Below, piece by piece: positions 39,342 through 58,147 of a stretch of 59,023 nt of DNA. Source of the stretch: an alpha proteobacterium HIMB59 (GTDB taxonomy: Bacteria; Pseudomonadota; Alphaproteobacteria; HIMB59); assembly GCA_004321805.1 (NCBI GenBank), contig SGZV01000006.1, forward strand, positions 1 to 59,023, given 5' to 3'. A program made the translations under genes and the position numbers. Positions within the stretch are counted from its first letter, which is position 1; each line of letters opens with the position of its first letter. The notes below the pieces were generated by a model. The model worked only from the letters and a program-made list of their open reading frames with translations. It was not told the DNA's origin and searched no databases.

Positions 39342-40502
39342 ATGCCAGGTAAAATTTCACTCTTTGTTCCAGGACCAACAAATATGCCCGATCGTGTGAG
39401 GCAAGCAATGGATATATCTAATGAAGATCATCGTGCTCCAGGAATGGATAAATTTTGGCATCCTTTAATTGATGATCTAAAAAAAGTTTTCGAAACAAAT
39501 TCTGCTCAGCCTTTTATATTTCCAGGAACTGGTAGTAGTGGTTGGGAAGCCGCACTCACAAATCTTTTAAACAAAGGAGATAAAGTATTATCTGCCCGCT
39601 TTGGTCAGTTTTCACATCTATGGATTGAAATGTGTAAAAAGCTACATATTGATGTTGAGGTTGTTGATACAGAATGGGGTAGTGGAACTCCACATGAAGA
39701 ATTTGAAAAAATATTAAGTGAAGATAAAAACCATGAAATTAAAGCAGTATTAGTTACGCATAATGAAACATCCACTGGTGTCACAAACGATGTTAAAGCT
39801 ACTAGAGATTTATTAAATAAAATTAATCACCCTGCTTTGTTATTTGTTGATGGCGTTAGTTCAATTGGTTCCATTAAATTTGAGATGGATAAATGGGGTG
39901 TAGATGTAGCTGTCTCAGGTTCTCAAAAAGGATTTATGCTACCTGCTGGTTTAGCCATTAGCTGTGTTAGTCAAAAAGGTTTGGAGATTGCCAAGACGTC
40001 AAATCTTCCAAGAGCTTATTTTGATTATCATGATATGTTAAATGTAAATAATACTGGTTATTGGCCATATACAAATCCAATGCCTTTGCTCAGAGGTTTA
40101 AGAGAAGCGTTAAATATGATGCTAGAAGAGGGACTGGATAATATTTATGCTCGACATTTATTTTTAGCCCAAGCTGTTCAAAAGGCAACCCAAGCATGGG
40201 GATTAAACTTATGTGCTAAAGATCCTTCTTTATATTCAAATACCGTCACTGCAATTATGGTTCCAGAAGGAATAGACTCTACTGACATAGTAAAAACAGC
40301 GTATAACAAATATCACACCTCTTTTGGTGGTGGATTAAACAAAGTTGCTGGTAAGTTGTTTAGGATCGGACACTTAGGTGATCTTAATAGTACTATGATA
40401 TTAGGTGCAATTTCTACAGCTGAACTTGCCATGTATGATGTGGGGATTAAATTTGAATTAGGTAGTGGTGTTGCTGCTGCCATTAAGCATTTAAAGGACT
40501 AA
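39342..40502 (+). CDS. Serine-glyoxylate / alanine-glyoxylate-type aminotransferase
   Basis: Class V PLP aminotransferase of 386 residues. FVPGPTNMP at the start, the FPGTGSSGWEAAL cofactor loop and the PLP lysine K196 in GSQKGFMLPAG are typical of serine-glyoxylate aminotransferases, which make glycine plus hydroxypyruvate. The relative BhcA (aspartate-glyoxylate) is close in sequence, but none of the other beta-hydroxyaspartate cycle genes is present. Its partner gene 2 bases downstream is a ketopantoate-reductase-like enzyme that could handle the 2-oxo product. Preceded by an AGAAAGGA ribosome-binding site. Confidence 0.85.
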   Translation: MPGKISLFVPGPTNMPDRVRQAMDISNEDHRAPGMDKFWHPLIDDLKKVFETNSAQPFIFPGTGSSGWEAALTNLLNKGDKVLSARFGQFSHLWIEMCKKLHIDVEVVDTEWGSGTPHEEFEKILSEDKNHEIKAVLVTHNETSTGVTNDVKATRDLLNKINHPALLFVDGVSSIGSIKFEMDKWGVDVAVSGSQKGFMLPAGLAISCVSQKGLEIAKTSNLPRAYFDYHDMLNVNNTGYWPYTNPMPLLRGLREALNMMLEEGLDNIYARHLFLAQAVQKATQAWGLNLCAKDPSLYSNTVTAIMVPEGIDSTDIVKTAYNKYHTSFGGGLNKVAGKLFRIGHLGDLNSTMILGAISTAELAMYDVGIKFELGSGVAAAIKHLKD

Positions 40503-40504
40503 TT

Positions 40505-41485
40505 ATGAAAATTTGTATTTATGGTGCTGGAGCCATCGGAGGATATTTAGGGGCCAAACTTACTGAAATAGGTGCAGATGTAACATTAATTGCAAGAGGA
40601 CCTCACTATGAAGCTATTCGTCAGGATGGTTTAAGACTTCGAAAAGATGGCAAAGAACTTGTTGTTTATCCAAAGTGTGTTGATACTGCTGAAAAAGCAG
40701 GAAAACAAGACTACATTTTTGTTACTTTAAAAGCGCACTCAGTGCCAGGGTGCTTAGACGCATTTGAAGTGTTAATGAAAGACGATACCTCTTTTGTTTG
40801 GGGTGTTAATGGAATTCCTTGGTGGTATTTCCACAACCATGAAAACCCTGACTATAGAAATAAAAAAGTTGCATCAGTTGATCCTGATGGCAGTCAATGG
40901 GATAGACTTGGACCAGAAAAAATTATTGGATGTATAGTTAATCCTGCTTCAGAAGTTATAAAACCTGGAGTCATTCAGCACTTAGAGGGAGATAAATTTC
41001 AGTTAGGCGAGATCAATGGTGAAGAGACAGATAGAATTAAAAAATTATCCGCTACTCTTGAAGAGGCTGGTTTTCAAGCACCCATTCGTCCAAATATAAA
41101 AGGTGATATCTGGTTAAAGCTTTTTGGAAATTTGTCTTTGAATCCAATTAGCTCACTTACCACTTCAACTTTAGTTAAAATTTGTAGCGACCAAGAAGTT
41201 AGAAATGTTGTAAAAAATATGATGAATGAGGCTCATGATATTTCTAAAAAATTAGGAATAGAAAAACCTTTTGATGTTGAAAGAAGAATTGAAGCAGCAA
41301 AAGCTGTGGGTGAACATAAGACTTCGATGCTTCAAGATCTTGAAAGAGATCGCCCTATGGAAATTGACGCTTTAGTTTCTTCGGTGCAGGAACTTGGAAG
41401 GATTACCAATGTCCCTACACCTACAATTGATACTGTTTTGGCTCTAGTTAAATTAAGAGCCAAAGAAGCAAAGCTGTATAAGTAA
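40505..41485 (+). CDS. 2-dehydropantoate reductase-family oxidoreductase (ApbA/PanE)
   Basis: NAD(P)H-dependent reductase of 2-oxo acids. Nucleotide-binding GAGAIGGYLGAKL at residues 7-19, FVTLKAH near 75, and the C-terminal helical domain with the catalytic lysine region GDIWLKLFGNLSLNPI near 200 and DALVSSVQELG. The 326 residues are a little longer than PanE (about 300). Immediate coupling to the aminotransferase suggests reduction of hydroxypyruvate or another 2-oxo acid from that reaction, not necessarily pantoate synthesis; this is inference. Confidence 0.8.
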   Translation: MKICIYGAGAIGGYLGAKLTEIGADVTLIARGPHYEAIRQDGLRLRKDGKELVVYPKCVDTAEKAGKQDYIFVTLKAHSVPGCLDAFEVLMKDDTSFVWGVNGIPWWYFHNHENPDYRNKKVASVDPDGSQWDRLGPEKIIGCIVNPASEVIKPGVIQHLEGDKFQLGEINGEETDRIKKLSATLEEAGFQAPIRPNIKGDIWLKLFGNLSLNPISSLTTSTLVKICSDQEVRNVVKNMMNEAHDISKKLGIEKPFDVERRIEAAKAVGEHKTSMLQDLERDRPMEIDALVSSVQELGRITNVPTPTIDTVLALVKLRAKEAKLYK

Positions 41486-42358
41486 TTAACCTAAAGCCTT
41501 TTGTATTGTCTCGCCCAATTTGGCAGGTGATTTTGAAATGTGAACACCTGCATCTTCTAATGCATTAAATTTAGACTCAGCAGTTCCTTTTCCACCTGAG
41601 ATAATAGCTCCAGCATGACCCATTCTTTTACCAGCAGGTGCACTAGCGCCCGCAATAAAAGATGCTACAGGTTTTTTAATCGATGAATTTTTAATAAAAT
41701 CTGCTGCTTCTTCTTCTGCAGTTCCACCAATTTCACCAATCATAATAATCCCCTCGGTTTCTGGATCTTTGAGGAATAGGTCGAGGCAATCAATAAAGTT
41801 GGTTCCGTTAATAGGATCTCCACCAATACCTATACAAGTAGATTGTCCTAATCCTACTGCAGAGGTTTGCGCTACTGCTTCGTAAGTTAATGTCCCTGAA
41901 CGGCTCACCACTCCAATTTTACCTTTTTGATGAATATGTCCAGGCATAATGCCAATTTTACATTCATCTGGAGTAATGATACCCGGGCAATTTGGTCCAA
42001 TAAGTCTAGAATTAGAATTTTCTAATTTTCTTTTTACCTGCATCATATCTAAAACTGGAACACCTTCTGTTATACAAACAATGAGCTCCATATTAGCGTC
42101 AATTGATTCAATGATAGCTCCAGCGGCAAAAGGAGGGGGGACATAAATAACAGTAGCTGTTGCTTGTGTGTTTTCTTTTGCTTCTTTGACTGTGTTAAAC
42201 ACAGGAAGACCTAAATGTTCTTGACCACCTTTTTTTGGGGTGACTCCACCAACCATTTGAGTTCCATATTTGATAGCTTGTTCAGAGTGAAAAGTACCTT
42301 GAGCACCTGTAAAACCCTGACAAATTACTTTGGTTTGTTTATTTATTAAAATTGACAT
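41486..42358 (-). CDS. sucD: Succinyl-CoA synthetase alpha subunit
   Basis: Forms the phosphohistidine intermediate in succinate-CoA ligation (TCA cycle). The catalytic histidine is H248 in [27 protein letters not shown] binds CoA and [10 protein letters not shown] is the linker signature. 290 residues is normal. It follows sucC by 10 bases with an AAAGGAG ribosome-binding site and ends flush against the convergent PanE-like gene. Malate-CoA ligase (MtkB) is a relative, but this sequence reads as SucD. Confidence 0.96.
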
Positions 42359-42368
42359 GATTGCTCCT

Positions 42369-43556
42369 TTACCCTAAGGCCTTTACAGCTTTTTGCGCTG
42401 CATCTTCTAAATTATCTGCAGAAATTATAGCTAGTCCGGATTTGTTGAGAATTTCTTTTCCTAATTCAACGTTTGTGCCTTCTAATCGAACAATTAGTGG
42501 AACTTTTATTTCTAATTCTTTAGCAGCAGCTACCACACCCTCAGCGATGATATCACACTTCATAATACCACCAAAAATATTGACCAAGATAGCTTTAACA
42601 CTAGAGTCCTGCAGAATTATTGAAAAAGCTTTTGCTACTCTTTCTTTTGTTGCTCCGCCACCAACATCTAAAAAATTAGCTGGGCTACCACCATGTAATT
42701 GAATTATATCCATTGTGCCCATAGCTAATCCAGCTCCATTGACCATACAACCAATACTTCCATCTAGTTTCACATAATTAAGTTCATGTTTTGATGCTTC
42801 AATTTCAGCTGGATCTTCTTCAGTCTCATCAAGCATCTCAGCAATATCTTTGTGTTTATATAAAGCATTATCATCTATCGATACTTTAGCATCTAGTGCA
42901 AGAAAATTTCCTTCTCCAGTTAAGACAAATGGATTTACCTCTACTAAAGACGCATCAGTTGATAAAAAACTTGTGTAAATTTTTTGAATTTGATCACAGA
43001 AATCATTTGACTGATTGTCATTTATTCCAAGTCCTTGAATAAGTTTATTCAAACTTTGTTGATCAATTTCAGGATCACCAGGAATATTAACAGTAATTAT
43101 TTTTTCAGGCTCTTTTTCAGCTACTTCTTCAATTTCCATCCCACCTTCTGTAGAGGCAATAATAGAGATTGAGGAGCTCGAACGATCAACAAGCATACTC
43201 AAATAAAATTCTTTTTTTATGTCACATCCTTCTTCTATGTAAAGTCGATTTACTACTTTTCCTTCAGGTCCTGTTTGTTTAGTAACAAGTGTTTTTCCTA
43301 GCATTTTTTGAGCATTTTCTTTAGCTTCTTCTTTAGAAAAGCAAACTCTTACTCCTCCTTTATCATCTCCACTATCAAGAAATTTACCTGCTCCTCTGCC
43401 TCCTGCATGGATTTGCGATTTAACTACCATTACTGGTGTTTGAATAGAGTCCACAGCATTATCAATATCAGCATCTTGTAAAACCGGGACGCCGGCTAAT
43501 ACTCGAACATTATTATCTTTCAATAATGTCTTAGCTTGGTATTCATGTAAATTCAT
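42369..43556 (-). CDS. sucC: Succinyl-CoA synthetase beta subunit
   Basis: ATP-grasp subunit of succinyl-CoA synthetase. [12 protein letters not shown] start, [11 protein letters not shown] nucleotide loop, and [15 protein letters not shown] and [13 protein letters not shown] core are SucC signatures; 395 residues is normal. Only 2 bases separate it from the upstream oxidoreductase, with AAGGAG overlapping that gene's last codons, so the oxidoreductase-sucC-sucD set is one transcript starting in the operator region at 44.5 kb. The usual partners mdh and sucAB are absent here. Confidence 0.97.
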
Positions 43557-43558
43557 TA

Positions 43559-44527
43559 TTACTCTCCTTTCATGTCGATTAATATTTTTCCAATATGGCT
43601 TGAAGACTCCATAACCTCATGGGCCAAATTTACATCTTTCATTTTGAAAGATTGAAAAATAGTTGGTTTATATTTGTTGTTATTGATAAGGGGCCATATA
43701 TTTTCAATAACTTGATTTACAATAAGTCCCTTACCCTCAGGTGATCTTGATCTAAGAGTAGACCCAGAAATTTTTAATTGTTTAGTCATGACATGTAAAA
43801 GATTGATTTCAGATTTAATACTTTCAAGTGCAGCAATATAAGTAAGACGTCCATGTAAATTTAAAATTTTTAAATTTTTTTTTAAATATGAACCTCCAAC
43901 CATATCTAAGATTATATCGACTTTTATTTTTTTTTCTTCAAAGTACTCTAAAAAATCCTTTTCTTTATAGTTGATAGAGTCAGTAGCGCCTAAGTTGATA
44001 CACGCTTGACATTTTTCATCAGATCCTGCGGTGACATAAATTTTATCTGTATAATTTTTCAAGATCGATATAGCAGTTGTTCCAATTCCACTACTCCCTC
44101 CATGAATTAAAATTGTTTCTCCTTTTTTAAATTTAGAAACATTAAAAATATTTTCATAGACAGTCAGGATTGTCTCAGATAATGCTCCACCCTCTAATAA
44201 TGATATATTAGATGGTAGAGGCATAACTTGTCTTTCATCAACATTAACAAACTCTGCGTATCCGCCCCCACCTAAGATTGCACAAACTTTGTCACCGATT
44301 TTAAATCGCTTTGAAGAATTTCCTATTTTTGAAATAATACCAGAACACTCTAATCCAAGAATTTCGCTTTCACCTTTGGGGGGAGGGTAGTGTCCTCTCT
44401 TTTGTAGTAAATCAGCCCTGTTAACACCTGAAGAATATATTTCTATTTGTACCTGATTTTCGGCAGGATCTAGTATTGATGATTCATCAATAAACAGCTT
44501 ACCCTCTTCATAATTTATAAATTTCAA
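43559..44527 (-). CDS. Zinc-free quinone oxidoreductase-like (PIG3/QOR family) protein
   Basis: Medium-chain dehydrogenase/reductase. GroES-like N-terminal half with [17 protein letters not shown], then a Rossmann half with [15 protein letters not shown]; the catalytic zinc ligands of alcohol dehydrogenases are absent, as in NADPH:quinone reductases. I place the start at TTG 44527, which has an AGAGGA ribosome-binding site and yields MKFINYEEG; an ATG at 44578 would begin inside the operator palindromes and add 17 residues without a good site. It heads the oxidoreductase-sucC-sucD operon. Substrate unknown. Confidence 0.85.
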
Positions 44528-44544
44528 AATATTTAATCCTCTAT

Positions 44545-44561
44545 TTGTATACAATATACCA
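44545..44561. promoter_or_regulatory. Operator palindrome 1 for GntR/FCD regulator (predicted)
   Basis: TTGTATACAATATACCA is a 7-3-7 inverted repeat with one mismatch to the perfect copy 24 bases away; its left part TTGTATACAA is itself a perfect 10-base palindrome, a form known for GntR-family operators. It lies 18 bases before the oxidoreductase TTG start. Confidence 0.65.
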
Positions 44562-44568
44562 AATAAAC

Positions 44569-44585
44569 TGGTATACAATATACCA
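44569..44585. promoter_or_regulatory. Operator palindrome 2 for GntR/FCD regulator (predicted)
   Basis: TGGTATA-CAA-TATACCA is a perfect 7-3-7 inverted repeat. The same arms and spacing recur at 48633-48649 before the ThDP-enzyme gene, with the GntR gene between the two. This repetition is the main evidence for operator function. Confidence 0.75.
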
Positions 44586-44742: not shown

Positions 44743-45720
44743 ATGACTTTAATAAAAAAAATCAGTCTAGTAATTGTTTCTCTATCACTTGTTGCTGTAA
44801 GTTCAGTTTCTTCTGCTAAACCATTTAGCCCAAAGAAACCTATTGAACTAATTATTCCAGCTGGTCAAGGTGGTGGAGCTGACGAAATTGCCAGACTTGT
44901 GCAAGGTGTTATTGAGAAAAATGACTATGCATCTAAGCCTGTGATTCCAATCAATAAAAAAGGTGGATCAGGTGGTGAAGCGATGACTTATGTTAAGAAA
45001 AAAGCTGGTGATGAGCACACACTTATCATTACTCTTAATAACGTTTTAACTACACCTGTTAACCAGCCTGAGTTAGGAATTGATTTCTTCAATGACTTTA
45101 CTCCATTAGCAAGACTTATCACAGATACATTCTTAGTATGGATTGCAACTGAAGGTAAAAATACCCAAGGCGTAGAAACATTTGATGACTTCATTGCACT
45201 TGCAAAACAAGGTAACCTTGTTGCTGGTGGTACAGGAAGTATGTCAGAAGACGAGTTACTTCTTGGTATGATGAGAGGCCAGTTCGGATTTGATGCAAAG
45301 TACGTACCATATGACGGTGGTGGTGCTGTTGCAAAAGGACTAGTTGGCGGTGAGTCAGACTTCACGCTAAACAATCCTTCTGAGCAGATGGGATTTTATC
45401 AGTCTGGAGACTCTAAGGCTTTGGTTATGATGACTCCTGAAAGAAATCCTGCATTCCCAGAGGTCCCTTCTTCATATGAATTAGGTTATCCCGATCTTGA
45501 ATACTACATGATGAGAGCTTTTATGGCTCCTGCTGGTATTGATGCAGAAGTGGAAAAGTACTACACAGGGCTTCTTCACACTGTTTATCATGATGACGAG
45601 TTCCAAACTTTCAACATTGACGACGGTAAGTTAATGAGTTGGTTGGAAGGATATGGTCTTAAAGACTTCTTAGCGATTGAGTACGAGAAGCACGGTGAGA
45701 TCATTAAGAACTTTAACTAA
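44743..45720 (+). CDS. tctC: Tripartite tricarboxylate transporter substrate-binding protein TctC
   Basis: Periplasmic binding protein for a carboxylate. Signal peptide at 1-25 (cleavage near VSSA-KPF), then the family pattern KPIELIIPAGQGGGADEIARL, in which the usual PxxPGGxxD loop is modified to PAGQGGGAD. 325 residues is normal. A strong AGGAGG (44728-44733) precedes the ATG, and codon use is visibly less AT-extreme than neighbouring genes, as expected for an abundant binding protein. Ligand cannot be read from sequence; the neighbouring enzymes suggest a 2-hydroxy or dicarboxylic acid. Confidence 0.93.
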   Translation: MTLIKKISLVIVSLSLVAVSSVSSAKPFSPKKPIELIIPAGQGGGADEIARLVQGVIEKNDYASKPVIPINKKGGSGGEAMTYVKKKAGDEHTLIITLNNVLTTPVNQPELGIDFFNDFTPLARLITDTFLVWIATEGKNTQGVETFDDFIALAKQGNLVAGGTGSMSEDELLLGMMRGQFGFDAKYVPYDGGGAVAKGLVGGESDFTLNNPSEQMGFYQSGDSKALVMMTPERNPAFPEVPSSYELGYPDLEYYMMRAFMAPAGIDAEVEKYYTGLLHTVYHDDEFQTFNIDDGKLMSWLEGYGLKDFLAIEYEKHGEIIKNFN

Positions 45721-45742: not shown

Positions 45743-46357
45743 TTGAGCGCAGTTACTAAATTTTCAGTTAGAAGGGCAGAAATAACTGTCGCTGTAGTTT
45801 TAGCACTGTGCTCACTCGCTCTTATGTATAAAAGCGCGCAAAACAGAATTACATGGAGTGCAGAAGAAAATATGGGAGCCGGGTTTCTTCCCTTCTACCT
45901 CTCATTAGGAATGTTGATTTGTACTGTAATTACCATCATCAAATTTATTTTAAAAAAATCTCCACAATCCACAAACAACGAGCCTTTTATTGATCCTGAG
46001 GCTTTTAAGTTTGTATCGGTAACTATAATTTCACTTGTAGTTTTAGTTTTTGCTATCGGATATTTAGGAATTTATTTTTCTTTAATTTGTTTCTTAGCAT
46101 TCTATTTAAGATATTTTAGCGAAAAGAGTAATTCATTCATTTTTAATTTTTCTATAACAACCCCTATTTTGACTTTCTTATTTTTTGAGTGGTTGTTAAA
46201 AATTCCTTTGCCTCAAGGAATATCTGAACCTTTATTTTATCCAGTTTACGATGTTATGTATGGTTCAAGTTCATTGTTTATGATTTGGATATATATAATT
46301 ATCACTGTACTTTCACCAACTGTCTTAATGCTTCTTGCTAACAGATTTGTAAAATAA
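45743..46357 (+). CDS. tctB: Tripartite tricarboxylate transporter small membrane subunit TctB
   Basis: Small integral membrane subunit of TTT systems. The 204-residue protein has four or five hydrophobic segments (about 13-28, 45-66, 91-125, 130-150, 175-198) and the conserved MGAGFLPFYLSLGM segment, corresponding to the MGPGFFP of the family. Start is TTG. It lies between tctC and tctA, the usual order. Confidence 0.88.
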   Translation: MSAVTKFSVRRAEITVAVVLALCSLALMYKSAQNRITWSAEENMGAGFLPFYLSLGMLICTVITIIKFILKKSPQSTNNEPFIDPEAFKFVSVTIISLVVLVFAIGYLGIYFSLICFLAFYLRYFSEKSNSFIFNFSITTPILTFLFFEWLLKIPLPQGISEPLFYPVYDVMYGSSSLFMIWIYIIITVLSPTVLMLLANRFVK

Positions 46358-46383: not shown

Positions 46384-47898
46384 ATGGAAACTTTTGCATT
46401 ACTTCTTCAAGGTATGGCTACATCGTTTGAATTGTTAAATTTAGGCCTTTTAATATTTGGATGCCTTATAGGCTTATTTGTTGGAGCTATGCCAGGCCTA
46501 GGTTCGGTCAATGGTGTTGCTATACTAATTCCAATTACTTTTATTGTGCCTCCTACAGCTGCAATTATTTTTTTAGCAGCAGTTTATTACGGAGCAATGT
46601 ACGGAGGTGCGATCAGTTCTGTGATGCTAGGCATACCAGGAGCATCAACTGCCGTAGCCACAGTTTTTGATGGAAGACCTTTGGCTGTAAAGGGTGAGGC
46701 GATGACTGCCCTCACAGCAGCTGCCGTAGGCTCTTTTGTAGGTGGAACCGTGTCTGTAATCTTATTCACTTTATTCGCACCACCACTTGCTGAAGTAGCC
46801 TTGAGATTTAATGCTCCCGAAACTTTTGCTTTAATGGTTATGGCTTTTGCAACTTTTGTTGGTCTAGGTGGCGATGATATCCCTAAAACAATTTTTTCGA
46901 TTTTAATTGGATTAGTTTTATCAACAATAGGACTAGACTTAATTACTGGTAAACCCCGCTTAATATTTTTTGGTATTCCAGGTTTTCTCCATGGAATAAA
47001 TTTCTTAGTTCTGGCCATAGGCATTTATGGAATTGGTGAGATGTTGTGGACACTAGAAGAAACCAAGGGAAAAGTTCAAATGTCTAAACTCTCAGTTAAT
47101 ATGAAGGAGGTTGGAAGAGCCTTCTCTGCATTAAAAAAGACCATTATGGCAATGAATATAGGTTCATTTTTAGGATTTTTTGTAGGCATTTTGCCAGCAG
47201 CAGGTGCAACACCGGCATCGTTAATGTCTTATGGTATAACAAAACAACTCTCGAGGAACTCAAAAGAATTTGGCAACGGGGTTCCTGCAGGTGTAGTTGC
47301 TCCAGAGTGTGCGAATAATTCTGCAAGCACTGGAAGTATGCTCCCAATGTTAACTCTTGGTATTCCGGGATCTCCTACTACCGCAATCCTTTTGGGAGGA
47401 ATGATACTTTGGGGCTTAACTCCAGGGCCTTTATTGTTTACACAACAACCAGAATTTGTCTGGGGATTAATTGGAAGTCTTTATATTGCAAATTTTTTCA
47501 CTCTTGTGTTAAACATTGCTTTAATACCAGCTTTCTTAATGGTTCTAAGAATTCCTTTTGCAATATTAGCTCCGGTGATATTTGTTCTTTGTGTCACTGG
47601 TGGTTACGCACCGACGCAAAGCCTTCATGATGTCTGGTTGATGTTATTGTTTGGATTTGGGGGATATATGCTCAGAAAATTAGATTATCCTGTAGCCCCA
47701 GCTGTCTTATCGATCGTTTTGGGTCCTTTGGCTGAGAAGGCTATGAGACAATCGTTAATTTTATCAGACGGTAGTATGGGCATCTTTTTTGACTTTGCAT
47801 CAAAACCGATTGCTGCAGTAATTATGTACATAGCAATTGTTTTATTGATCATGCCAGCTTTTGGGCCGCTATACAGAAGATTTTTCAAAAAGACTTAA
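46384..47898 (+). CDS. tctA: Tripartite tricarboxylate transporter large membrane subunit TctA
   Basis: Main permease of the TTT family, driven by an ion gradient. The 504 residues contain about 11-12 membrane helices and the duplicated family motifs GAMPGLGSVNGVAILIP (near 34) and GILPAAGATPASLMSYG (near 262), plus YYGAMYGGAISSVMLGIPG and PTTAILLGGM. An antisense ORF within it (46587-47024) is a shadow. It is the last transporter gene; the GntR gene follows after 45 bases. Confidence 0.95.
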   Translation: METFALLLQGMATSFELLNLGLLIFGCLIGLFVGAMPGLGSVNGVAILIPITFIVPPTAAIIFLAAVYYGAMYGGAISSVMLGIPGASTAVATVFDGRPLAVKGEAMTALTAAAVGSFVGGTVSVILFTLFAPPLAEVALRFNAPETFALMVMAFATFVGLGGDDIPKTIFSILIGLVLSTIGLDLITGKPRLIFFGIPGFLHGINFLVLAIGIYGIGEMLWTLEETKGKVQMSKLSVNMKEVGRAFSALKKTIMAMNIGSFLGFFVGILPAAGATPASLMSYGITKQLSRNSKEFGNGVPAGVVAPECANNSASTGSMLPMLTLGIPGSPTTAILLGGMILWGLTPGPLLFTQQPEFVWGLIGSLYIANFFTLVLNIALIPAFLMVLRIPFAILAPVIFVLCVTGGYAPTQSLHDVWLMLLFGFGGYMLRKLDYPVAPAVLSIVLGPLAEKAMRQSLILSDGSMGIFFDFASKPIAAVIMYIAIVLLIMPAFGPLYRRFFKKT

Positions 47899-47943: not shown

Positions 47944-48603
47944 ATGATACAAAAGATAGGAGCAATAAATTTAAAAAGCAAAGTATATGAGTCTCTTAAA
48001 AAATATATTCTCTCTTTGAATATTTACTTAAAAGAAAGCGACTTTCATTTAGATGAAAGACAATTATCAGAAAAATTAGGTGTTAGTAGAACCCCCATTA
48101 GAGAGGCAATAGCTAAATTAGAGTCTGAGGGGATAGTTATAACAGTTCCTAGAAGGGGGGTATTTGTCCATAGAAAATCAAAAAAAGAACTTATTGATAT
48201 TGTAACTGTATGGGCAGGTTTAGAAGGATATGCAGCTCACTTGATAATCAAAAATTCTAAAAAAGAGGAAATTGAGTCTTTAAATAAATATTGCCAGTAC
48301 ACCAAACAAAATGTTTTGTCTGATTTAGATAATTACTCAAATGATAATATTAAATTTCATGAACAAATTATGAAACTTACTAAAGTAAGACTCATGAGTG
48401 AGATACTAGAATCACAATTAATTCATCTGCAGTATTTGAGAAAAAAGTTCATTATTCAATCTGATAGATCTCTCAAATCGATTGAAGAACATAACGAAAT
48501 TGTTAAATTTCTTGTCGCAGGCCAAGCCACAAAAGCTGAAAAATTATTGAAAAATCATGCTTTAACTTTAGTTGAAAAGATCGAAGAAAGTATTCAAACT
48601 TAA
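47944..48603 (+). CDS. GntR-family regulator with FCD domain
   Basis: FadR-type regulator of 219 residues. The winged helix (about 15-80) has RQLSEKLGVSRTPIREAIAKL as recognition region; the C-terminal FCD helical domain (about 85-215) with FHEQIMKL and later histidines binds a small carboxylate through a metal in related proteins. It lies between the transporter and the enzyme genes, flanked by matching palindromes at 44569 and 48633, so it is the probable regulator of both sets, responding to the imported acid or a product. A weak GTATC-N5-GATAC repeat (47936-47950) overlaps its start and could give autoregulation. Confidence 0.9.
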   Translation: MIQKIGAINLKSKVYESLKKYILSLNIYLKESDFHLDERQLSEKLGVSRTPIREAIAKLESEGIVITVPRRGVFVHRKSKKELIDIVTVWAGLEGYAAHLIIKNSKKEEIESLNKYCQYTKQNVLSDLDNYSNDNIKFHEQIMKLTKVRLMSEILESQLIHLQYLRKKFIIQSDRSLKSIEEHNEIVKFLVAGQATKAEKLLKNHALTLVEKIEESIQT

Positions 48604-48665: not shown

Positions 48666-50342
48666 ATGTCTACAGGAACAAACGAACAAATGATAACAGG
48701 CGGCGAGCTTGTCGCTAAGGCTCTTAAAGCAGAGGGCATTGAAGTAATTTACACATTATGTGGTGGCCATATTATTGATATCTACAATGGCTGTTTAAAT
48801 GAAGGAATTAAAATTATTGATGTAAGGCATGAAGAAGTTGCCTCACATGCAGCTGATGGATATGCACGTATGACTGGAAAACCTGGTTGCGCAGTCGTAA
48901 CTGCTGGCCCTGGAACTACTCATGCATTAACCGGTGTAGCGAATGCTTTCAGAGCAGAAATACCAATGCTTCTTATTGGGGGACAAAGTTCTTTGACTCA
49001 ACATAAAATGGGATCATTACAAGATCTGCCCCACGTAGACATGATGCAACCAATTACTAAATTCGCTGCTACAGTAATGTCAACTGAAAGATGTGCTGAT
49101 ATGGTTTCTATGGCCTTTAGAGAAACACGTAATGGATCTTTCGGCCCTTCTTTTTTAGAAATCCCTCGTGATATTCTCGACTCTTCAATTCCAATGAGTA
49201 AGGCTGTTGTGCCTGAAACAGGAAAATATTCTGCCTCTTCCAAAACCTTAGCCGATCCTGTAGATGTTCAAAAAGCAGCAGATATAATTTCCAAAGCTGA
49301 AAGACCTTGTGTTCTTCTAGGTCAACAAGTTTGGACATGTCAATCTACTGATGAAGCAGTTGACTTTGTTCGAAACATGAATATTCCAGCTTATCTAAAT
49401 GGTGCTGCTAGAGGATCATTACCTCCTGGAGACCCTCATCATTTTCATAGAACAAGAAGAAACGCATTTACTAAGTCTGATTGCATAATAATAGTAGGAA
49501 CCCCCTTTGATTTTAGAATGGGCTACGGAAAAAGATTAAATCCTAATGCAACTGTGATTCAAATAGATATGGATTATAGAACTGTTGGTAAAAATAGAGA
49601 TATTTCTTTAGGCTTGGTTGGCCACATAGGTACAACGTTGAAAGCTATATCTGAGGCAGGTACAAAACAAGATAGGTCTGATTGGTTCAATGAACTAAGA
49701 GCCGGTGAAGAAGCGGCCCTTGAAAAATTAATGCCTACTTTTACTACTGAAAAATCTCCTATTAGTCCCTATAGAGTAGCTTGGGAGCTAAACCAATTCT
49801 TAAATGATGACACTATTTATATCGGTGATGGTGGTGATGTTGTAACAATCAGTGCCCAAGCAGTACAGCCAAGACAGCCTGGTGCATGGATGGATCCAGG
49901 CCCTCTAGGAACATTGGGAGTTGGAGTACCATATGCTCTTGCCGCCAAAATAGCAGCGCCTGAAAGAGAAGTCCTCTTATATTGTGGAGATGGTGCATTT
50001 TCTATGACAGGAATGGATTTTGAGGCTTTCGTTCGCCACAAAGCACCAGTTTTAACTGTCATTGGTAATAACTCAGCACAAAATCAAATTCGTTTTGGAC
50101 AAATTATGAAGTATGGAGAAGAGAAGGGTAATGTTGGAAATATCTTAGGTGACGTTAACTTCGATGAGTTTGCAAAAATAATGGGCGGTCACGGAGAAGC
50201 AGTCCGTGAGGCTAAAGATATACAACCTGCTCTTCAAAGAGCTAGGGAGGCCGTCAAGTCAGGTATACCAGCAATTGTTAATATTTGGGTTGACAAAGAG
50301 GAATTTGCGCCTGGCACTAAAAACCAGACTATGTATAAATAA
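48666..50342 (+). CDS. ThDP-dependent enzyme, 2-hydroxyacyl-CoA lyase / oxalyl-CoA decarboxylase-like
   Basis: Member of the acetolactate synthase-like ThDP superfamily, 558 residues. The cofactor-activating glutamate is E56 in DVRHEEVASHAADGYAR; the ThDP/Mg motif runs from GDG at about 440 to NN at about 467. Residues 116-125, GSLQDLPHVD, resemble the GAFQEFPQVE segment of 2-hydroxyacyl-CoA lyases more than the GDYEEMDQM of oxalyl-CoA decarboxylase, whose active-site Tyr-Glu pair is missing. With an Frc-like enzyme next door, the likely reaction is cleavage of an acyl-CoA to formyl-CoA plus an aldehyde, ketone or CO2. Acetolactate synthase is unlikely in this context. Confidence 0.8.
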   Translation: MSTGTNEQMITGGELVAKALKAEGIEVIYTLCGGHIIDIYNGCLNEGIKIIDVRHEEVASHAADGYARMTGKPGCAVVTAGPGTTHALTGVANAFRAEIPMLLIGGQSSLTQHKMGSLQDLPHVDMMQPITKFAATVMSTERCADMVSMAFRETRNGSFGPSFLEIPRDILDSSIPMSKAVVPETGKYSASSKTLADPVDVQKAADIISKAERPCVLLGQQVWTCQSTDEAVDFVRNMNIPAYLNGAARGSLPPGDPHHFHRTRRNAFTKSDCIIIVGTPFDFRMGYGKRLNPNATVIQIDMDYRTVGKNRDISLGLVGHIGTTLKAISEAGTKQDRSDWFNELRAGEEAALEKLMPTFTTEKSPISPYRVAWELNQFLNDDTIYIGDGGDVVTISAQAVQPRQPGAWMDPGPLGTLGVGVPYALAAKIAAPEREVLLYCGDGAFSMTGMDFEAFVRHKAPVLTVIGNNSAQNQIRFGQIMKYGEEKGNVGNILGDVNFDEFAKIMGGHGEAVREAKDIQPALQRAREAVKSGIPAIVNIWVDKEEFAPGTKNQTMYK

Positions 50343-50358: not shown

Positions 50359-51606
50359 ATGGAAGCTCTTAAAGGTGTAAAAGTTTTGGATATGACACAT
50401 GTCCAATCAGGTCCTACATGTACTCAACTTTTAGCATGGTTTGGAGCAGACGTCGTCAAAGTTGAGAGACCTGGCGTTGGAGATGCGACTAGAGGCCAAT
50501 TAAGAGATGTACCTGAAGCAGACAGCCTCTACTTTACTATGCTTAACTCAAATAAAAGAAGTATTACTCTCAATCCAAAAAAACCAGAAGGTGCAAAAAT
50601 ATTTACTCAATTGATCAAAGAATGTGATGTGATGGTTGAAAACTTTGCACCTGGAGCATTGGATCGAATGGGTTTTTCATGGGAGAAAATTCAAGAGATT
50701 AACCCAAGAATGATATATGCATCTGTGAAAGGCTTTGGACCTGGTAAATATGAAGAATGTAAGGTTTATGAAAATGTAGCTCAGTGTGCCGGTGGGTCTG
50801 CATCGACTACTGGAATGCTAGGAGAGGTACCCATGGTTACAGGTGCCCAAATAGGAGATAGCGGAACAGGCTTACACTTAGCATTAGGAATTGTTACAGC
50901 ATTATTTCATAGAGAAAAATCTGGAAAAGGTCAGAGGGTCTCAGCTGCAATGCAAGACGGTGTTCTTAATCTTTGTAGAGTAAAACTTCGTGATCAACAG
51001 AGATTAGAAAAAGGTCCATTAAAAGAATACTCACAATTTGGAGAAAATGTTCCCTTTGGCGATGCAACACCTAGAGCAGGTAATGACTCAGGAGGTGGTC
51101 AGCCTGGAAGAATTCTTAAGTGCAAAGGATGGGAGGAAGACCCTAATGCTTATACCTATTTCATTACTCAAGCTGCTGTTTGGGAAAAGGTATGTGATGT
51201 TATTGGTAAGCCAGAGTGGAAGGATGATGAAAATTACTCAACTCCTGCAGCTCGTCTGCCCAGATTAAACGAAATTTTTGATACCATTGAGGAGTGGACT
51301 AAGACTAAGACTAAGTTTGAAGTAATGGATATCTGTAATCCATTGGATATTCCTGTAGGTCCAATTCTTTCTCTAAAAGAAATATCTGAGGATCAGGGTT
51401 TAAGAGATACTGGCACTGTTGTAGAAGTAGACCATCCTATTAGAGGAAAATATTTAACTGTCGGAAATCCAATTAAACTTTCAGACTCACCAGCAGTTGT
51501 AAAACGTTCTCCTTTATTAGGTGAACACACCGAAGAAATTCTTAAAGAGTTTTGTAACATGACTGATGAAGAAATTAGTGCTGTCAAAGAGGCTGGTGCT
51601 GTATAA
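50359..51606 (+). CDS. frc: Formyl-CoA transferase-like CaiB/BaiF (class III) CoA-transferase
   Basis: Very close in wording to formyl-CoA:oxalate CoA-transferase: [54 protein letters not shown] and [11 protein letters not shown] all match that family as I recall it. The catalytic aspartate is D167 in [11 protein letters not shown] (Asp169 in the Oxalobacter enzyme). A notable change is Gln47 in TRGQLRD, where characterised oxalate enzymes have Trp48, a residue lining the active site. The 415 residues match the family. It probably moves CoA from formyl-CoA or succinyl-CoA onto the imported acid. It starts 16 bases after the ThDP gene. Confidence 0.85.
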
Positions 51607-51626
51607 ATTATATTTAGGAGGAAATA

Positions 51627-52544
51627 ATGAAAATAATATTAATGGGACAACAAGCATTTGGAAAAAGTGCTCTCGAAAAGTTTCACAATGAATCTGATCA
51701 TGAAGTAGTTGCTGTTTATTGTGCGCCTGATAAAGAGGGGAAACCTTTAGATCCAGTTAAGGAATATGCTAAGAGTGTAAACCTACCTGTTTTTCAACCT
51801 TCTAATTTCAAAGATCAGGAGGTCTTGGACCAAATAAAATCTCATGACGCTGACTTATGTGTCATGGCTTATGTTATTATCTTCGTTCCAGAAGCTGCAA
51901 GAGATATTCCAAAACATGGATCTGTATGTTTCCATCCTTCTTTGTTACCTTTACACAGAGGCCCAAGTTCAATAAACTGGCCAATCATTGGTGGCGCCAC
52001 AAAAACAGGATTAACTATTTTTTACCCTAATGACGGCTTAGACGAAGGAGAAATTCTCCTTCAAAAAGAAGTTGAAATTGGTCCTGATGATACCTTAGGA
52101 GACGTTTATTTTTCTAAGATTTTTCCATTAGGTATTGACGCATGTATAGAAGCTGCTGACTTAATTGCTGCAGGAAATGCACCTCGTATTGCTCAAGATG
52201 AATCAAAGGCTACCTATGAGTCATGGTGCAAAAAGGCAGACGCTAGAATAGATTGGAAAAAACCTGGAAGGGAAGTTTACAATTTAATCAGAGGTTGTAA
52301 TCCACAACCAGGAGCATGGGCAGAGTTTATGGGTGATGAATTTACTTTTGTTGATACTAAATTCATAGACCAACAAAGTGCTGAACATTTTCCTGGTCAA
52401 ATAATTTCAATTAATGCAGAAAATATTGAAATTGCGGTTAAAGGTGGTTTTATTGAAGTCTCTAGATTTAAATCTGATCAGGGTAAGCTATACGTCAAAG
52501 ATATGAATACTGCGGTATTTACAGAGGGCGATTTATTCTCATAA
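51627..52544 (+). CDS. Stand-alone 10-formyl-THF hydrolase/formyltransferase-like protein (FDH N-terminal domain type)
   Basis: 305 residues with the two-domain layout of methionyl-tRNA formyltransferase and the N-terminal half of 10-formyl-THF dehydrogenase. It reads like the latter: ILMGQQAFGKSALE, VYCAPDKEGKPLDP, then HPSLLPLHRGPSSINW and DGLDEGEILLQ. The catalytic His103 and the aspartate near 139 are present, but the residue two before the His is Cys101, not the Asn of Fmt and PurN. A C-terminal OB-like part follows; the carrier and aldehyde-dehydrogenase domains are absent. Linked to formyl-CoA enzymes, it may transfer formyl between CoA-derived formyl and THF, or release formate. Strong AGGAGG site. 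Confidence 0.75.
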   Translation: MKIILMGQQAFGKSALEKFHNESDHEVVAVYCAPDKEGKPLDPVKEYAKSVNLPVFQPSNFKDQEVLDQIKSHDADLCVMAYVIIFVPEAARDIPKHGSVCFHPSLLPLHRGPSSINWPIIGGATKTGLTIFYPNDGLDEGEILLQKEVEIGPDDTLGDVYFSKIFPLGIDACIEAADLIAAGNAPRIAQDESKATYESWCKKADARIDWKKPGREVYNLIRGCNPQPGAWAEFMGDEFTFVDTKFIDQQSAEHFPGQIISINAENIEIAVKGGFIEVSRFKSDQGKLYVKDMNTAVFTEGDLFS

Positions 52545-52553
52545 TACTCATTA

Positions 52554-53048
52554 GTGCCTAAAAACAACCCTGATTCACCTAAGACGATCTCTATTATTGT
52601 CTATTTCATTTTGCTTTTTGCATTATGGTTTGTGCTTTCTGGTTATCTAAAAACACTTTTATTATTTTTTGGTCTTATAAGTGTCATTTTTGTTTTGTGG
52701 ATGTCAGTAAGATCTAAATCACTAAACTACGATGCCTTTCCTCTAAAGCTTTTAATTAAACTACCCATTTATTGGATTTGGCTAATAAAAGAAATAATAA
52801 AATCGGGATTAACCACTACAAAAATTATATGGAAAGGTAACTATACCCCACAGCTTTTAAAAGTTAAGGCTTCTCAAAAAAATGATACTGGTAAAGCAAA
52901 CTATGCTAACGCAATTACTTTAACTCCAGGCACAGTAACCATAGAAATTAATAAAGATACTTTTTTGGTCCATGCATTAAGTAAAGAACTAGCTGAGGAT
53001 CTACAATCAGGTGAGATGGACAAACTTATTAAAGGTTTACATAAATGA
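52554..53048 (+). CDS. mnhE: Mrp/Mnh antiporter subunit E
   Basis: First gene of an Mrp-type multi-subunit cation/proton antiporter. 164 residues with two or three N-terminal hydrophobic segments (about 14-55) and the MnhE domain: YWIWLIKEIIKSGLTTTKIIW and ANAITLTPGTVTIEI, the family signature for the C-terminal part. Start is GTG. It lies only 9 bases after the formyltransferase-like gene, so read-through from the C1 operon is possible. It overlaps mnhF by 4 bases. Confidence 0.9.
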   Translation: MPKNNPDSPKTISIIVYFILLFALWFVLSGYLKTLLLFFGLISVIFVLWMSVRSKSLNYDAFPLKLLIKLPIYWIWLIKEIIKSGLTTTKIIWKGNYTPQLLKVKASQKNDTGKANYANAITLTPGTVTIEINKDTFLVHALSKELAEDLQSGEMDKLIKGLHK

Positions 53049-53308
53049 TTTTTTTTCTTGCTCTTACCATATTGGGTTTATCGATACTTTTTTGCATTTA
53101 TAGAGCAGTGAAGGGTCCAACACCTTTTGACAGAATTTTATCTATTTCAAGTATTGGAACCATTATGGCTTTAGGTATAGCAATTCATGGGTTTGCATTT
53201 AATAGACCGGACTTTGTTGATATTGCCTTAATGTACATACTTTTAAATTTTCTCGGAACGATAGCTATTTTAAAATTTTATAAAATGAAAGGTAAAAAGA
53301 AAGTTTAA
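53045..53308 (+). CDS. mnhF: Mrp/Mnh antiporter subunit F
   Basis: Small membrane subunit of 87 residues with three hydrophobic helices. IYRAVKGPTPFDRILSIS and DIALMYILLNFLGTIAILKFY are MnhF signatures. The stop and the mnhG ATG share a base. Confidence 0.92.
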   Translation: MIFFLALTILGLSILFCIYRAVKGPTPFDRILSISSIGTIMALGIAIHGFAFNRPDFVDIALMYILLNFLGTIAILKFYKMKGKKKV

Positions 53309-53619
53309 TGGGGTATCTGATTCATTACTCTACAATTTTTTTTCTATTTCTAGGTTGTTTTTTTATTTTATCAGGTAGTGTCGGCCTAATAAAATTACCT
53401 GATGTCTTTAGTAGAATACATGCTGCAGGTTTAATTGATACTTTAGGAACTGGTTTTATAATTTTATCTTTGATTATTCACTCAGGATTTTCCCTACTGA
53501 GTTTGAAACTTTTACTGATACCTTTATTTATATTATTTACTAGCCCCATATCTGGTCATGCTATTTCATTGTTTGCACATGAGTCTGGATATAAACCAAA
53601 AGCAAAACTTAAAAGATAA
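53308..53619 (+). CDS. mnhG: Mrp/Mnh antiporter subunit G
   Basis: 103 residues with three membrane helices. GSVGLIKLPDVFSRIHAAGLIDTLG is abbreviated here as the LPDVFSRIHAAG motif, diagnostic of MnhG/PhaG, and the TSPISGHAIS segment is also typical. Overlaps the next gene by one base. Confidence 0.93.
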   Translation: MGYLIHYSTIFFLFLGCFFILSGSVGLIKLPDVFSRIHAAGLIDTLGTGFIILSLIIHSGFSLLSLKLLLIPLFILFTSPISGHAISLFAHESGYKPKAKLKR

Positions 53620-54182
53620 TGAATTTTTTAATAATAAATTTTTTTCTAATTTCAATTTTACTTCTTACTACTTTTTATATCTTTAAGACGACTTCTTTAA
53701 TATCCGTAGTGGCTTTGACAGGGATTTTTACATTAGTTTGTGCTGCGATTTATGTAAATCTTGATGCGGTGGATGTTGCTTTTACTGAAGCAGCAGTAGG
53801 ATCAGGTATTTCTACTATTTTAATGGTGATGGCAGTCGCTAAATTACCTGAAGGAAAGAAAAATGAATTATTAAACTTATTTCCAAGTATTCTTTTATCA
53901 GTCTCTATCGTTATAGTGCTTTTGCTAATTATTACAAATTTACCACTTTTGGGAGACCCAAATGCTCCAATTCACCTTCATGTAACTCCTGAATATATTA
54001 AAGAAAGTAAATCCATATTCCACATTCCTAACGTTGTTACAAACATTTTAGCTAGTTACAGAGGTTTTGATACTTTAGGCGAAACAATAGTGATATTTAC
54101 TGCTGGGCTGGGGGTTATTGTATTGCTTACAAGCAATACATTAAATAGAAAAACTAAATTTAAAAAGAAAGTAAAAAAATAA
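53619..54182 (+). CDS. Mrp antiporter MnhA C-terminal/DUF4040-type subunit
   Basis: 187 residues corresponding to the C-terminal part of MrpA (DUF4040 plus linker), encoded as a separate gene. LDAVDVAFTEAAVGSGIST is the DUF4040 signature; six hydrophobic segments are visible. In classical Mrp operons this is fused to the large NuoL-like subunit A; here it is split, as in the group 2 and hydrogenase-related complexes. A GFDTLGETIVIFTAGLGV segment near 150-167 corresponds to the MrpA/B junction motif. Confidence 0.85.
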   Translation: MNFLIINFFLISILLLTTFYIFKTTSLISVVALTGIFTLVCAAIYVNLDAVDVAFTEAAVGSGISTILMVMAVAKLPEGKKNELLNLFPSILLSVSIVIVLLLIITNLPLLGDPNAPIHLHVTPEYIKESKSIFHIPNVVTNILASYRGFDTLGETIVIFTAGLGVIVLLTSNTLNRKTKFKKKVKK

Positions 54183-54619
54183 TGAAAGACAATATTTCAT
54201 CGAGTCCAATTTTAAATATTGTCAGTAGAATACTTTTTGCTCCAATTATTATTTTTGGATTGTATGTACAATTTCATGGTGACTATGGTCCAGGCGGAGG
54301 ATTTCAAGCGGGAGTTATTATTGCTGCAGCTTTTATTCTTTACTCTATGGTTTTCGGTATTAAAAAAGGAGAAACCTTAGTTCCTATAAAAATTAATCAA
54401 TATCTAATGTGTATTGGAGTTTTGCTATATGCAGGTGTAGGGGTCGTATCCATTTTTTTAAATGGCAACTATTTAGATTATAATGTTTTGGCATCTGACA
54501 GTTCTTCTGGTCAGCATTTAGGTATCATTCTTGTAGAACTTGGAGTTGGTATAACAGTGGCCACAGTAATGATTGCTTTATATCATTCTTTCGCATCTTT
54601 TAGGATTAAAGATGACTAA
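54182..54619 (+). CDS. mnhB: Mrp/Mnh antiporter subunit B
   Basis: 145 residues with four membrane helices. The family signature FHGDYGPGGGFQAGVI is at about 39-54 and GVGITVATVMIALY at the C-terminus. Starts at the base after the previous stop overlap and itself overlaps mnhC by 8 bases. Confidence 0.93.
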   Translation: MKDNISSSPILNIVSRILFAPIIIFGLYVQFHGDYGPGGGFQAGVIIAAAFILYSMVFGIKKGETLVPIKINQYLMCIGVLLYAGVGVVSIFLNGNYLDYNVLASDSSSGQHLGIILVELGVGITVATVMIALYHSFASFRIKDD

Positions 54620-54974
54620 TCTTTTATTTTTTTGGAACCACTTTGCTTTTATAATTTTAATGGTAAGCGGGCTTTTTATTATAATAACAAGTCAAAATTA
54701 TATTAAAAAAATTGTTGGATTGGCTATTTTTCAAACTTCTGTATTTGTTTTTTTTGTTTCCTTAGCAAAAATTATTGATGGCACTGCCCCAATATTAAAT
54801 TCAACAAATGACGTTTATTCTAATCCCCTACCTCATGTTTTAATTCTAACAGCGATCGTTGTTGGAGTGGCCACATCTGCATTAGGTTTAGCAATAGTTC
54901 TTCAAATTTATAAAAATTATGGATCCATTGAAGAAAATGAAATCAAAAAAGTAGAGTTAAAGGAAAATAACTAA
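54612..54974 (+). CDS. mnhC: Mrp/Mnh antiporter subunit C (NuoK-like)
   Basis: 120-residue NuoK homologue with three membrane helices; IVGLAIFQTSVFVFFVSL and PLPHVLILTAIVVGVATSALGLA are MnhC features including the conserved acid-poor second helix. I use the ATG at 54612 (MTNLLFFW), overlapping the mnhB stop; an ATG at 54573 in the same frame would extend into mnhB without family support. Confidence 0.92.
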   Translation: MTNLLFFWNHFAFIILMVSGLFIIITSQNYIKKIVGLAIFQTSVFVFFVSLAKIIDGTAPILNSTNDVYSNPLPHVLILTAIVVGVATSALGLAIVLQIYKNYGSIEENEIKKVELKENN

Positions 54975-54975
54975 A

Positions 54976-56469
54976 ATGAATATCTTTTTAGATGACGCAC
55001 CTGCTCTTGTTGTAGTTTTACCTCTATTAGTAGCAGCAATCGTAGCATTTATTCCTTCTCCAAGATTGGCTTGGTTTATAACAATTGTAACTTTAGTGAT
55101 TCATGTATTGTTGTCTATTGAACTTTTAACGAGTTTTTCTTCTTTTGGTGCAATTATATATGAATTTGGTAATTGGCCTCCGCCTTGGGGTATCTCTTTT
55201 AAATTGGATGGAGTAAATATTGGACTACAAATACTATTTTCTGCTTTTGTTTTAATAGCAACTATTTATGCAAGAAAGATTTTTTTATCTGAAATAGAGC
55301 CTGAGGACTCAGGTAAGGCATATTCTTTATGGTTGTTAGCAATCGGAAGCTTAAATGGAATAATTTTAACCAATGATATTTTTAATTTATTTGTCTTTCT
55401 AGAAATATCAGCGCTATCATCTATTTCATTAATTTCTTTAGGTGCTGGGACAAATAGAAAAGCATTATTAGCTGCTTTCAATTATTTAATAATTGGTGCT
55501 ATTGGAGCTACTTTCTATGTCATAGGTGTAGGATTTGCTTATGCCATGACAGGTACACTTAATATGAATGATTTAATTATTCAACTTACTCAATATTCGG
55601 AGGGTCAGCTGGCAATTTTTGCCGGTATGTCTTTTATGTTAATTGGTTTAATGGTTAAGTCAGCAGTATTCCCTTTGCACCTGTGGCTACCTCCTGCATA
55701 TAGCTATGCACCATCAGCTGTTTCAACTCTTTTTGCGGCATTGGCTACTAAGGCTATTTTGATTTTCTTTGTGAGGATTTTGTATGAGGTATTCTCAATC
55801 TATAATGATTATCTAATACTCTTTTTAGATTACATTTTACTTCCACTATCTTTGATAGCTATTTTTGTTGGAACAATAATTGCTATTTATCAAGATGATA
55901 TAAAAAAATTATTAGCTTACTCCTCAATTGCTCAAATTGGATATATAACTCTTGCATTTAGTATAAAAGATAATAGTGGAGTTCTTGCGGGTTTTGTTCA
56001 TATTTTCAATCATGCTTTAATTAAAGGAGGCCTCTTTATGGCTGTGGGGTATCTAGCAATTTCATTAAAAGATCGAGTTACCTTACAAAGCATCGAAGGA
56101 TATGGGCAAAAATTCCCAATTACTTCTTACGCACTATTAATATGTGGACTTTCGCTTATAGGTTTGCCTCTTACAAATGGTTTTATTTCTAAACTATATA
56201 TTTTTCAGGCACTTTATATTAATGAAATGTTTTTAACTATTGCTCTTGTGGCTTTGAGTTCTGCATTGGCAGTTATTTATTTTTGGAAAATTGTTGAAAA
56301 ATTATTTTTTAGCTCAAAAGGATATAAGGCAACTTCAGAAGATCCCGCAATCTATATACCCATTTGGATAATAGCAATATCAATAATTTATTTTGGTATC
56401 TTTTCATCATCCATAGTTGATTTCTCATCGATTGCATCAGAGTCTTTGATCAAAGGAGGCATTAATTGA
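54976..56469 (+). CDS. mnhD: Mrp/Mnh antiporter subunit D (NuoN/NuoM-like), first copy
   Basis: 497-residue proton-channel subunit with about 14 membrane helices. The key glutamate lies in IFNLFVFLEISALSS (about residue 144) and the key lysine in GLMVKSAVFPLHLWLPPAYSYAPS (about 230-255); both match functional residues of the NuoL/M/N family. A third conserved region DDIKKLLAYSSIAQIGYI follows. This is the closest of the three large subunits to standard MnhD. Confidence 0.92.
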   Translation: MNIFLDDAPALVVVLPLLVAAIVAFIPSPRLAWFITIVTLVIHVLLSIELLTSFSSFGAIIYEFGNWPPPWGISFKLDGVNIGLQILFSAFVLIATIYARKIFLSEIEPEDSGKAYSLWLLAIGSLNGIILTNDIFNLFVFLEISALSSISLISLGAGTNRKALLAAFNYLIIGAIGATFYVIGVGFAYAMTGTLNMNDLIIQLTQYSEGQLAIFAGMSFMLIGLMVKSAVFPLHLWLPPAYSYAPSAVSTLFAALATKAILIFFVRILYEVFSIYNDYLILFLDYILLPLSLIAIFVGTIIAIYQDDIKKLLAYSSIAQIGYITLAFSIKDNSGVLAGFVHIFNHALIKGGLFMAVGYLAISLKDRVTLQSIEGYGQKFPITSYALLICGLSLIGLPLTNGFISKLYIFQALYINEMFLTIALVALSSALAVIYFWKIVEKLFFSSKGYKATSEDPAIYIPIWIIAISIIYFGIFSSSIVDFSSIASESLIKGGIN

Positions 56470-57914: not shown

Positions 57915-58147
57915 TGAAAAATAATAATCTTAAAACTTATGCAAAATACTTTTCTCAATTTATAATTGCTGTTGCTGGACTTCTTATAATTATTGATTTT
58001 ACTATTCATCGCCATGCCTATTTTCATTTAGAAGAGATAATTGGTTTTCCTGCAATATTTGGTTTCATTTGTTTTGTTTTCATTGTCATTGTTGGAAAAC
58101 AGCTAAGAAAAATTCTTATGAGAAAGGAGGACTACTATGACAAGTAG
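57914..58147 (+). CDS. Small membrane protein of the Mrp operon
   Basis: 77 residues with two hydrophobic helices (about 14-28 and 43-60), separated by the short HRHAYFHLEEIIGFP loop. Small two-helix proteins of this kind accompany group 2-like Mrp operons. No catalytic motif is visible. It overlaps neighbours at both ends: one base with the preceding gene and 11 with the next. Confidence 0.7.
   Translation: MKNNNLKTYAKYFSQFIIAVAGLLIIIDFTIHRHAYFHLEEIIGFPAIFGFICFVFIVIVGKQLRKILMRKEDYYDK

Follow-up and report, generated by a model that had tools for sequence, protein, structure and literature searches.

Genes at the locus

The gene studied here, which we call FDHN, lies at positions 51627..52544 (+) of the window, meaning the whole 59,023 nt stretch of HIMB59 DNA that was analysed, and reads from an ATG start through 305 aa with no internal stop. 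A ribosome-binding site, AGGAGG (51616..51621, +), can be read directly five bases ahead of the ATG, and the start codon lies 20 nt beyond the stop codon of the preceding gene, which ends at 51606. That gene (50359..51606, +), named a formyl-CoA transferase in the original prediction, is indeed a true formyl-CoA:oxalate CoA-transferase (FRC; TIGR03253, 696 bits against a cut-off of 504.2). A Pfam domain search of the 305 aa of FDHN returned Formyl_trans_N (100.6 bits) and Formyl_trans_C (67.4 bits), and no carrier (4'-phosphopantetheine), aldehyde dehydrogenase or enoyl-CoA hydratase-like domain.

Upstream of FRC, on the same strand, follow a ThDP enzyme (48666..50342, +) at the place that OXC holds in sister operons, a GntR/FCD regulator (47944..48603, +) that is conserved in these operons, and a tripartite tricarboxylate-type transporter. 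The latter consists of a TctA-like membrane subunit (46384..47898, +), recognised by homology to the annotated TctA of locus L136, the TctB subunit (45743..46357, +) and the solute-binding protein TctC (44743..45720, +), the substrate of which may be oxalate or another small acid. The ThDP enzyme scored below all curated cut-offs, with PRK05858 (488 against 587) and HACL (356 against 600) as the nearest models and OXC (TIGR03254) at 246 against 739.4. It belongs to a clade with no assigned function. Its assignment as a classical OXC is unsupported, given this score and the replacement of the active-site Tyr-Glu pair of OXC by Thr-Gln. Nor is a lyase of the AcHACL type supported, since around the position where AcHACL has its catalytic Glu the sequence reads GQIMKYG, with no Glu. 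Enzymes of the window type share the motifs QHKMG[SG]LQDLPH, NQIR[FYC]GQ and a C-terminal GT[KRQ][NA]QTMYK, and among the genomes searched none with this type beside FRC had an OXC over the cut-off. The enzyme probably also makes formyl-CoA.

Further upstream lie a divergent quinone oxidoreductase-like gene (43559..44578, -), the genes for a sucC-type CoA ligase beta subunit (42369..43556, -) and a sucD-type alpha subunit (41486..42358, -), a ketopantoate-reductase-like gene (40505..41485, +) and a serine-glyoxylate aminotransferase-like gene (39342..40502, +), the last four at a distance of 8-12 kb from FDHN. The window's sucC product is 55-56% identical to copies beside oxc-frc in other Alphaproteobacteria (loci L094, L096, L136 and L145), and this recurrence of sucCD, in places together with the oxidoreductase, suggests that 39342-44578 is a serine-cycle/glyoxylate island. 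The ketopantoate-reductase-like gene possibly encodes a CoA-acylating glyoxylate dehydrogenase; the candidate enzyme for this activity in Methylobacterium and Cupriavidus is one that we take to be a ketopantoate-reductase homologue. Both genera have such a candidate CoA-acylating glyoxylate dehydrogenase (PMC7486775). On the other side of FDHN, a Mrp/Mnh-type cation/proton antiporter operon (52554-59021) begins with a GTG 10 nt past the gene, but the junction is found in close relatives only, so that the antiporter is probably not functionally linked to FDHN.

FDHN resembles the hydrolase domain of 10-formyl-THF dehydrogenase

Among solved chains, the nearest to FDHN were the hydrolase domains of 10-formyl-THF dehydrogenase (FDH, ALDH1L1; 217 bits), followed by Fmt (134), ArnA (88) and HypX (34). 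The protein remained under the cut-off of the fmt equivalog TIGR00460 (169.5 against 201.5 bits) and far under that of the PurU profile TIGR00655 (21.7 against 285.95 bits). A maximum likelihood (ML) tree separated FDHN and FDH from Fmt and ArnA with support of 100/99, and the comparison of FDH placed inside with FDH placed beside the FDHN family gave a p-AU of 0.29. In a quick tree HypX fell on the side of FDHN and FDH with a support of 99, although the branch leading to it is very long. The AF2 model, built from 16 sequences, reached a mean pLDDT of 85.5, with values of 56-77 around residues 101-130, so that the active site is modelled too weakly for docking; a Foldseek search with this model listed FDH hydrolase domains first (E 2.6e-30), then Fmt (1.7e-26) and HypX (2e-16). 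By these sequence comparisons FDHN is an FDH-hydrolase-like protein and not an Fmt, in agreement with the original prediction, which had described it as the FDH hydrolase domain without its carrier and dehydrogenase domains. The animal ALDH1L1 N-domain was placed inside or beside the bacterial family in the ML tree, and this family may hence be its source.

The genome of the window contains three Formyl_trans_N genes: FDHN, a gene for a 310 aa Fmt on contig C26, and purN. The 310 aa protein aligns with Fmts and has the NIH motif and the RG loop, so that a second, true fmt is present, and each of the ten genus members with a genome completeness of 90% or more carries FDHN, a separate Fmt-like gene and the formate-THF ligase Fhs. 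The outcome that the original prediction had named as its refutation, tight clustering with true Fmt in a genome with no other fmt, is thus contradicted on both counts. The purN candidate (5101-5640) is the sole one in the genome; it encodes 179 aa from a TTG start, adjoins purM and scored 85 bits against the PurN cut-off of 150.

The active site was compared in an alignment of 45 FDHN relatives, 12 Fmts, ArnA, HypX and two FDH domains. In the window, the motif SVCFHPSLLP (residues 99-108; 51921..51950, +) contains Cys101 at the position of the Fmt Asn, the catalytic His103, the FDH/HypX-type Pro104 and Ser105, and the folate-loop motif NDGLDEG (residues 135-141; 52029..52049, +) contains the catalytic Asp139. 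His103 and Asp139 are invariant throughout the alignment (FDHN, Fmt, ArnA, HypX and FDH) and Ser105 is invariant except in HypX, which has Gly for this triad residue; all three catalytic residues are kept in 45/45 FDHN relatives. The Asn of the N-x-H motif is kept in 12/12 Fmts and ArnA, as well as in the window's PurN (NLH) and E. coli PurU (NIHHS), whereas it occurs in 0/45 FDHN relatives and is replaced by Ile in FDH and by Val in HypX. The predicted replacement of this Asn by Cys101 was thus confirmed, but the weight put on the cysteine was not: the equivalent residue is Gln in 37 of the 45 relatives and Cys in the other 8, the constant feature is the loss of Asn, and a special catalytic role of Cys101 is ruled out.

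Within the alignment, Pro104 and Ser114 are confined to FDHN, FDH and HypX, which have the signature H-P...R-G-x-S in common and all lack the Asn. FDH is the closest known system by sequence, structure and tree, with the same H-S-D triad, the more extended pattern HPSLLP...RG[PA]S[AS]INW and a nearly identical folate loop (WPDDGLDTG in many FDHN members, WADDGLDTG in FDH). FDHN differs from it in being bacterial, free-standing, devoid of the carrier and aldehyde dehydrogenase domains, linked to FRC and OXC, and in having Gln or Cys where FDH has Ile. The N-domain of HypX, which serves CO synthesis for NiFe-hydrogenase, resembles FDHN in its fold, the H-P pair and the signature RG.S..[DN]W, but is only about 15% identical and fused to an enoyl-CoA hydratase-like domain, and no hydrogenase genes are found among the conserved neighbours of FDHN. 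The only position comparable with a CoA contact of HypX, Lys13 in FDHN for Gln15 in HypX, is a weak match. With Fmt, FDHN has the two-domain Formyl_trans_N/C architecture in common. A loop of Fmt with basic residues (the RGKKL region) binds tRNA; it measures 22-23 residues in Fmt, 16-18 in FDHN and 16 in FDH, and the Fmt insertion is missing in 45/45 FDHN sequences. A comparison of the FDHN members with each other yielded no convincing residues that separate FRC-linked from unlinked proteins.

FDHN is associated with formyl-CoA enzymes

Formyl-CoA is the product of OXC and HACL and the substrate of FRC. Close relatives and a Kiloniellales MAG conserve the whole series TctC-TctB-TctA-GntR-ThDP enzyme-FRC-FDHN, and Hyphomicrobium conserves its final portion. 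In a set of 43 varied loci, 26 have FDHN directly 3' of FRC and 13 have it next to Fhs; the accompanying ThDP enzyme is a true OXC in 16 loci and of the window type in 8. A marine Paracoccaceae plasmid (CP031587.1) carries the series GntR-oxc-frc-"fmt_2"-fhs-usp followed by TctB and TctA, in which the FDHN relative bears the automatic label fmt_2, and this operon adjoins the serine-cycle genes ppc, sucCD, glyA, an aminotransferase gene and hprA. Relatives with 44-49% identity exist outside the Alphaproteobacteria, again together with FRC and OXC. In small complete genomes from another class of the phylum (L131-L133 and L135), a single operon comprises a CRP-like regulator, OXC, an FRC-like gene, in most of them a PAS protein, a second FRC and FDHN. 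An apparent fusion in genome G044 (an open frame of 730 aa) is an artefact of reading the open frame too far upstream, this genome encoding FRC, FDHN and Fhs separately.

The association extends to the genome level. In 385 alphaproteobacterial genomes, FDHN was called at E <= 1e-40, a threshold from which Fmt is clearly set apart, and FRC over its cut-off; 34 genomes have FDHN and 35 have FRC, with 28 containing both, 6 FDHN only, 7 FRC only and 344 neither (Fisher p = 2.7e-30 by genome and 1.1e-20 by genus, both uncorrected for phylogeny). In 10 of the genomes with FDHN, FRC is encoded elsewhere and not adjacent, and on the FDHN tree adjacency to FRC has to change state 8 times. The tie of FDHN to formyl-CoA enzymes, which had been proposed from the window alone, is far beyond chance. 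Fhs likewise accompanies FDHN (30/34 FDHN genomes against 33/80 others, p 2e-6). With Fhs in these 30 genomes and in 10/10 good genomes of the genus, FDHN as a stand-in for a missing Fhs is ruled out, and the lack of Fhs in the genome of the window is probably due to this genome being 80% complete. Similarly ruled out is a genus without other means of formate disposal, a formate dehydrogenase over the cut-off being present in 10 of 11 genomes.

A proposed formyl-CoA:THF formyltransferase and its alternatives

CoA bears the same phosphopantetheine arm as the carrier domain of ALDH1L1. The ALDH1L1 N-domain passes the formyl group of 10-formyl-THF to the 4'-phosphopantetheine thiol of this carrier domain, while on its own it can hydrolyse 10-formyl-THF in vitro, for which it requires a high, non-physiological thiol concentration (PMC8748788). 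HypX binds both CoA and THF, and conversion of 10-formyl-THF to formyl-CoA has been proposed for it without direct proof (PMC6802093). A formyl transfer between CoA and THF, put forward as new in the original prediction, is therefore not a wholly new idea, but in a free-standing enzyme this link would be new. The idea is strengthened by the analogy with the related FDH and HypX, in which the thiol of phosphopantetheine or, as proposed, of CoA takes the formyl group, and the free-standing FDH-type domain in the company of formyl-CoA enzymes makes FDHN best read as a formyl-CoA:THF formyltransferase. Family, residues, operon and co-occurrence are observed; from them we infer the reaction and the use of CoA, the data favouring neither direction, and we give this assignment about an even chance.

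FDHN would thus be a free-standing member of a thiol-linked branch of the 10-formyl-THF formyltransferases, catalysing formyl-CoA + THF <-> 10-formyl-THF + CoA, with Asp139, held by His103 and Ser105, as the likely base or acid and with CoA substituting for the phosphopantetheine arm on the ALDH1L1 carrier domain. Formyl-CoA would come from the ThDP enzyme (OXC or its stand-in) and be used by FRC, and FDHN would join it to the C1 pool of folate. On general thermodynamic grounds formyl-CoA should donate its formyl group to THF in a downhill reaction, while Fhs, ATP and the decarboxylase can draw the exchange the other way. In the forward direction, one-carbon units of oxalate or glyoxylate might enter folate without ATP. 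The FRC/OXC cycle alone recycles every formyl-CoA, so that a surplus would need a further supply of oxalyl-CoA, either from glyoxylate or through some other donor of CoA. Oxalyl-CoA that is, conversely, drained to glyoxylate makes refilling necessary, and in the backward direction Fhs and FDHN together could provide an ATP-driven supply of formyl-CoA that lets FRC activate oxalate. The broader picture, a dedicated formyl-CoA:THF formyltransferase that is widespread in Proteobacteria and forms a reversible module with Fhs and FRC, with the ALDH1L1 N-domain as its descendant or sister, falls slightly short of an even chance in our estimate. Against a formyl-CoA:THF transferase count the lack of surplus formyl-CoA from the FRC cycle alone, the oxc-frc clusters without FDHN, as in Paracoccus alcaliphilus, the six FDHN genomes without FRC over the cut-off, the weak match at the single comparable CoA contact, and the distribution of PurU.

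PurU is encoded in 0/34 genomes with FDHN against 89/351 others (about 25%; p 8e-5), and among genomes with FRC it is found in 0/28 with FDHN and 4/7 without (p 7e-4). This mutual exclusion, together with the in vitro activity of the isolated FDH domain, speaks for a rival in which FDHN takes over from PurU as a free-standing hydrolase (deformylase) of 10-formyl-THF, is perhaps helped by a cellular thiol and releases formate and THF, perhaps keeping the 10-formyl-THF pool in check when the supply of formyl-CoA or formate is high. The exclusion is in part, but only in part, explained by the presence of Fhs (given Fhs, the probability of PurU in 0/30 is ~0.004, uncorrected for phylogeny). A hydrolase would moreover run a futile, ATP-burning cycle with the Fhs that adjoins it in many operons and leave the tie to FRC unexplained, FDH hydrolysis depends on high thiol, and PurU, a real hydrolase, retains in its N-x-H-H-S motif the Asn that FDHN has lost. 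We regard this reading, whose release of formate the original prediction had raised as well, as unlikely but still viable.

Formyl-CoA hydrolase (EC 3.1.2.10) has been without a gene since 1963 (PMC10192776). FDHN, directly after the enzymes that make and use the same metabolite, could be this missing enzyme, cleaving formyl-CoA to formate and CoA with folate at most as an effector; there is no sequence of the known activity for comparison. The retention of all catalytic residues of the folate enzyme and of a folate loop that is nearly that of FDH argues against it, as does FRC, which already frees formate from formyl-CoA without wasting the thioester, and we consider this identity distinctly improbable. 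A little less credible still is the formylation of an amine, be it in a small metabolite or in a protein, as carried out by ArnA and sugar N-formyltransferases, for which the common fold speaks but not the loss in 45/45 relatives of the Asn that amine formyltransferases (Fmt, ArnA and the window's PurN) keep, nor the lack of recurrent sugar or amine genes beside FDHN. The identity of FDHN as the methionyl-tRNA formyltransferase or as a duplicate of that enzyme can practically be dismissed in spite of the fmt_2 label and the sub-cut-off match to TIGR00460, FDHN having failed all four tests of cut-off, N-x-H Asn, tRNA loop and clade in a genome with its own fmt.

In the open-access literature we found no published link of an Fmt-like gene to oxalate operons, and the AEGEAN-169 genome paper does not mention oxalate. 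The exits that we found described for formyl-CoA are FRC, hydrolysis and the decarbonylation proposed for HypX. If our preferred reading, the formyl-CoA:THF formyltransferase, is true, an enzyme that joins formyl-CoA to folate would open a further way into C1 assimilation and could be useful for synthetic formate and formyl-CoA pathways. The finding also corrects a recurrent wrong label (fmt), bears on the long-missing formyl-CoA hydrolase gene and gives the ALDH1L1 N-domain a bacterial relative with a readable gene context. FDHN is present in marine bacteria of the AEGEAN-169/HIMB59 type and in many other proteobacteria, and its context points to oxalate or glyoxylate use in this abundant ocean lineage.

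A subgroup of FDHN genes without adjacent FRC (loci L081, L083, L087 and L102) is located beside a pterin-4a-carbinolamine dehydratase gene, and in three of these four loci a 2OG-Fe(II) oxygenase-like gene follows.
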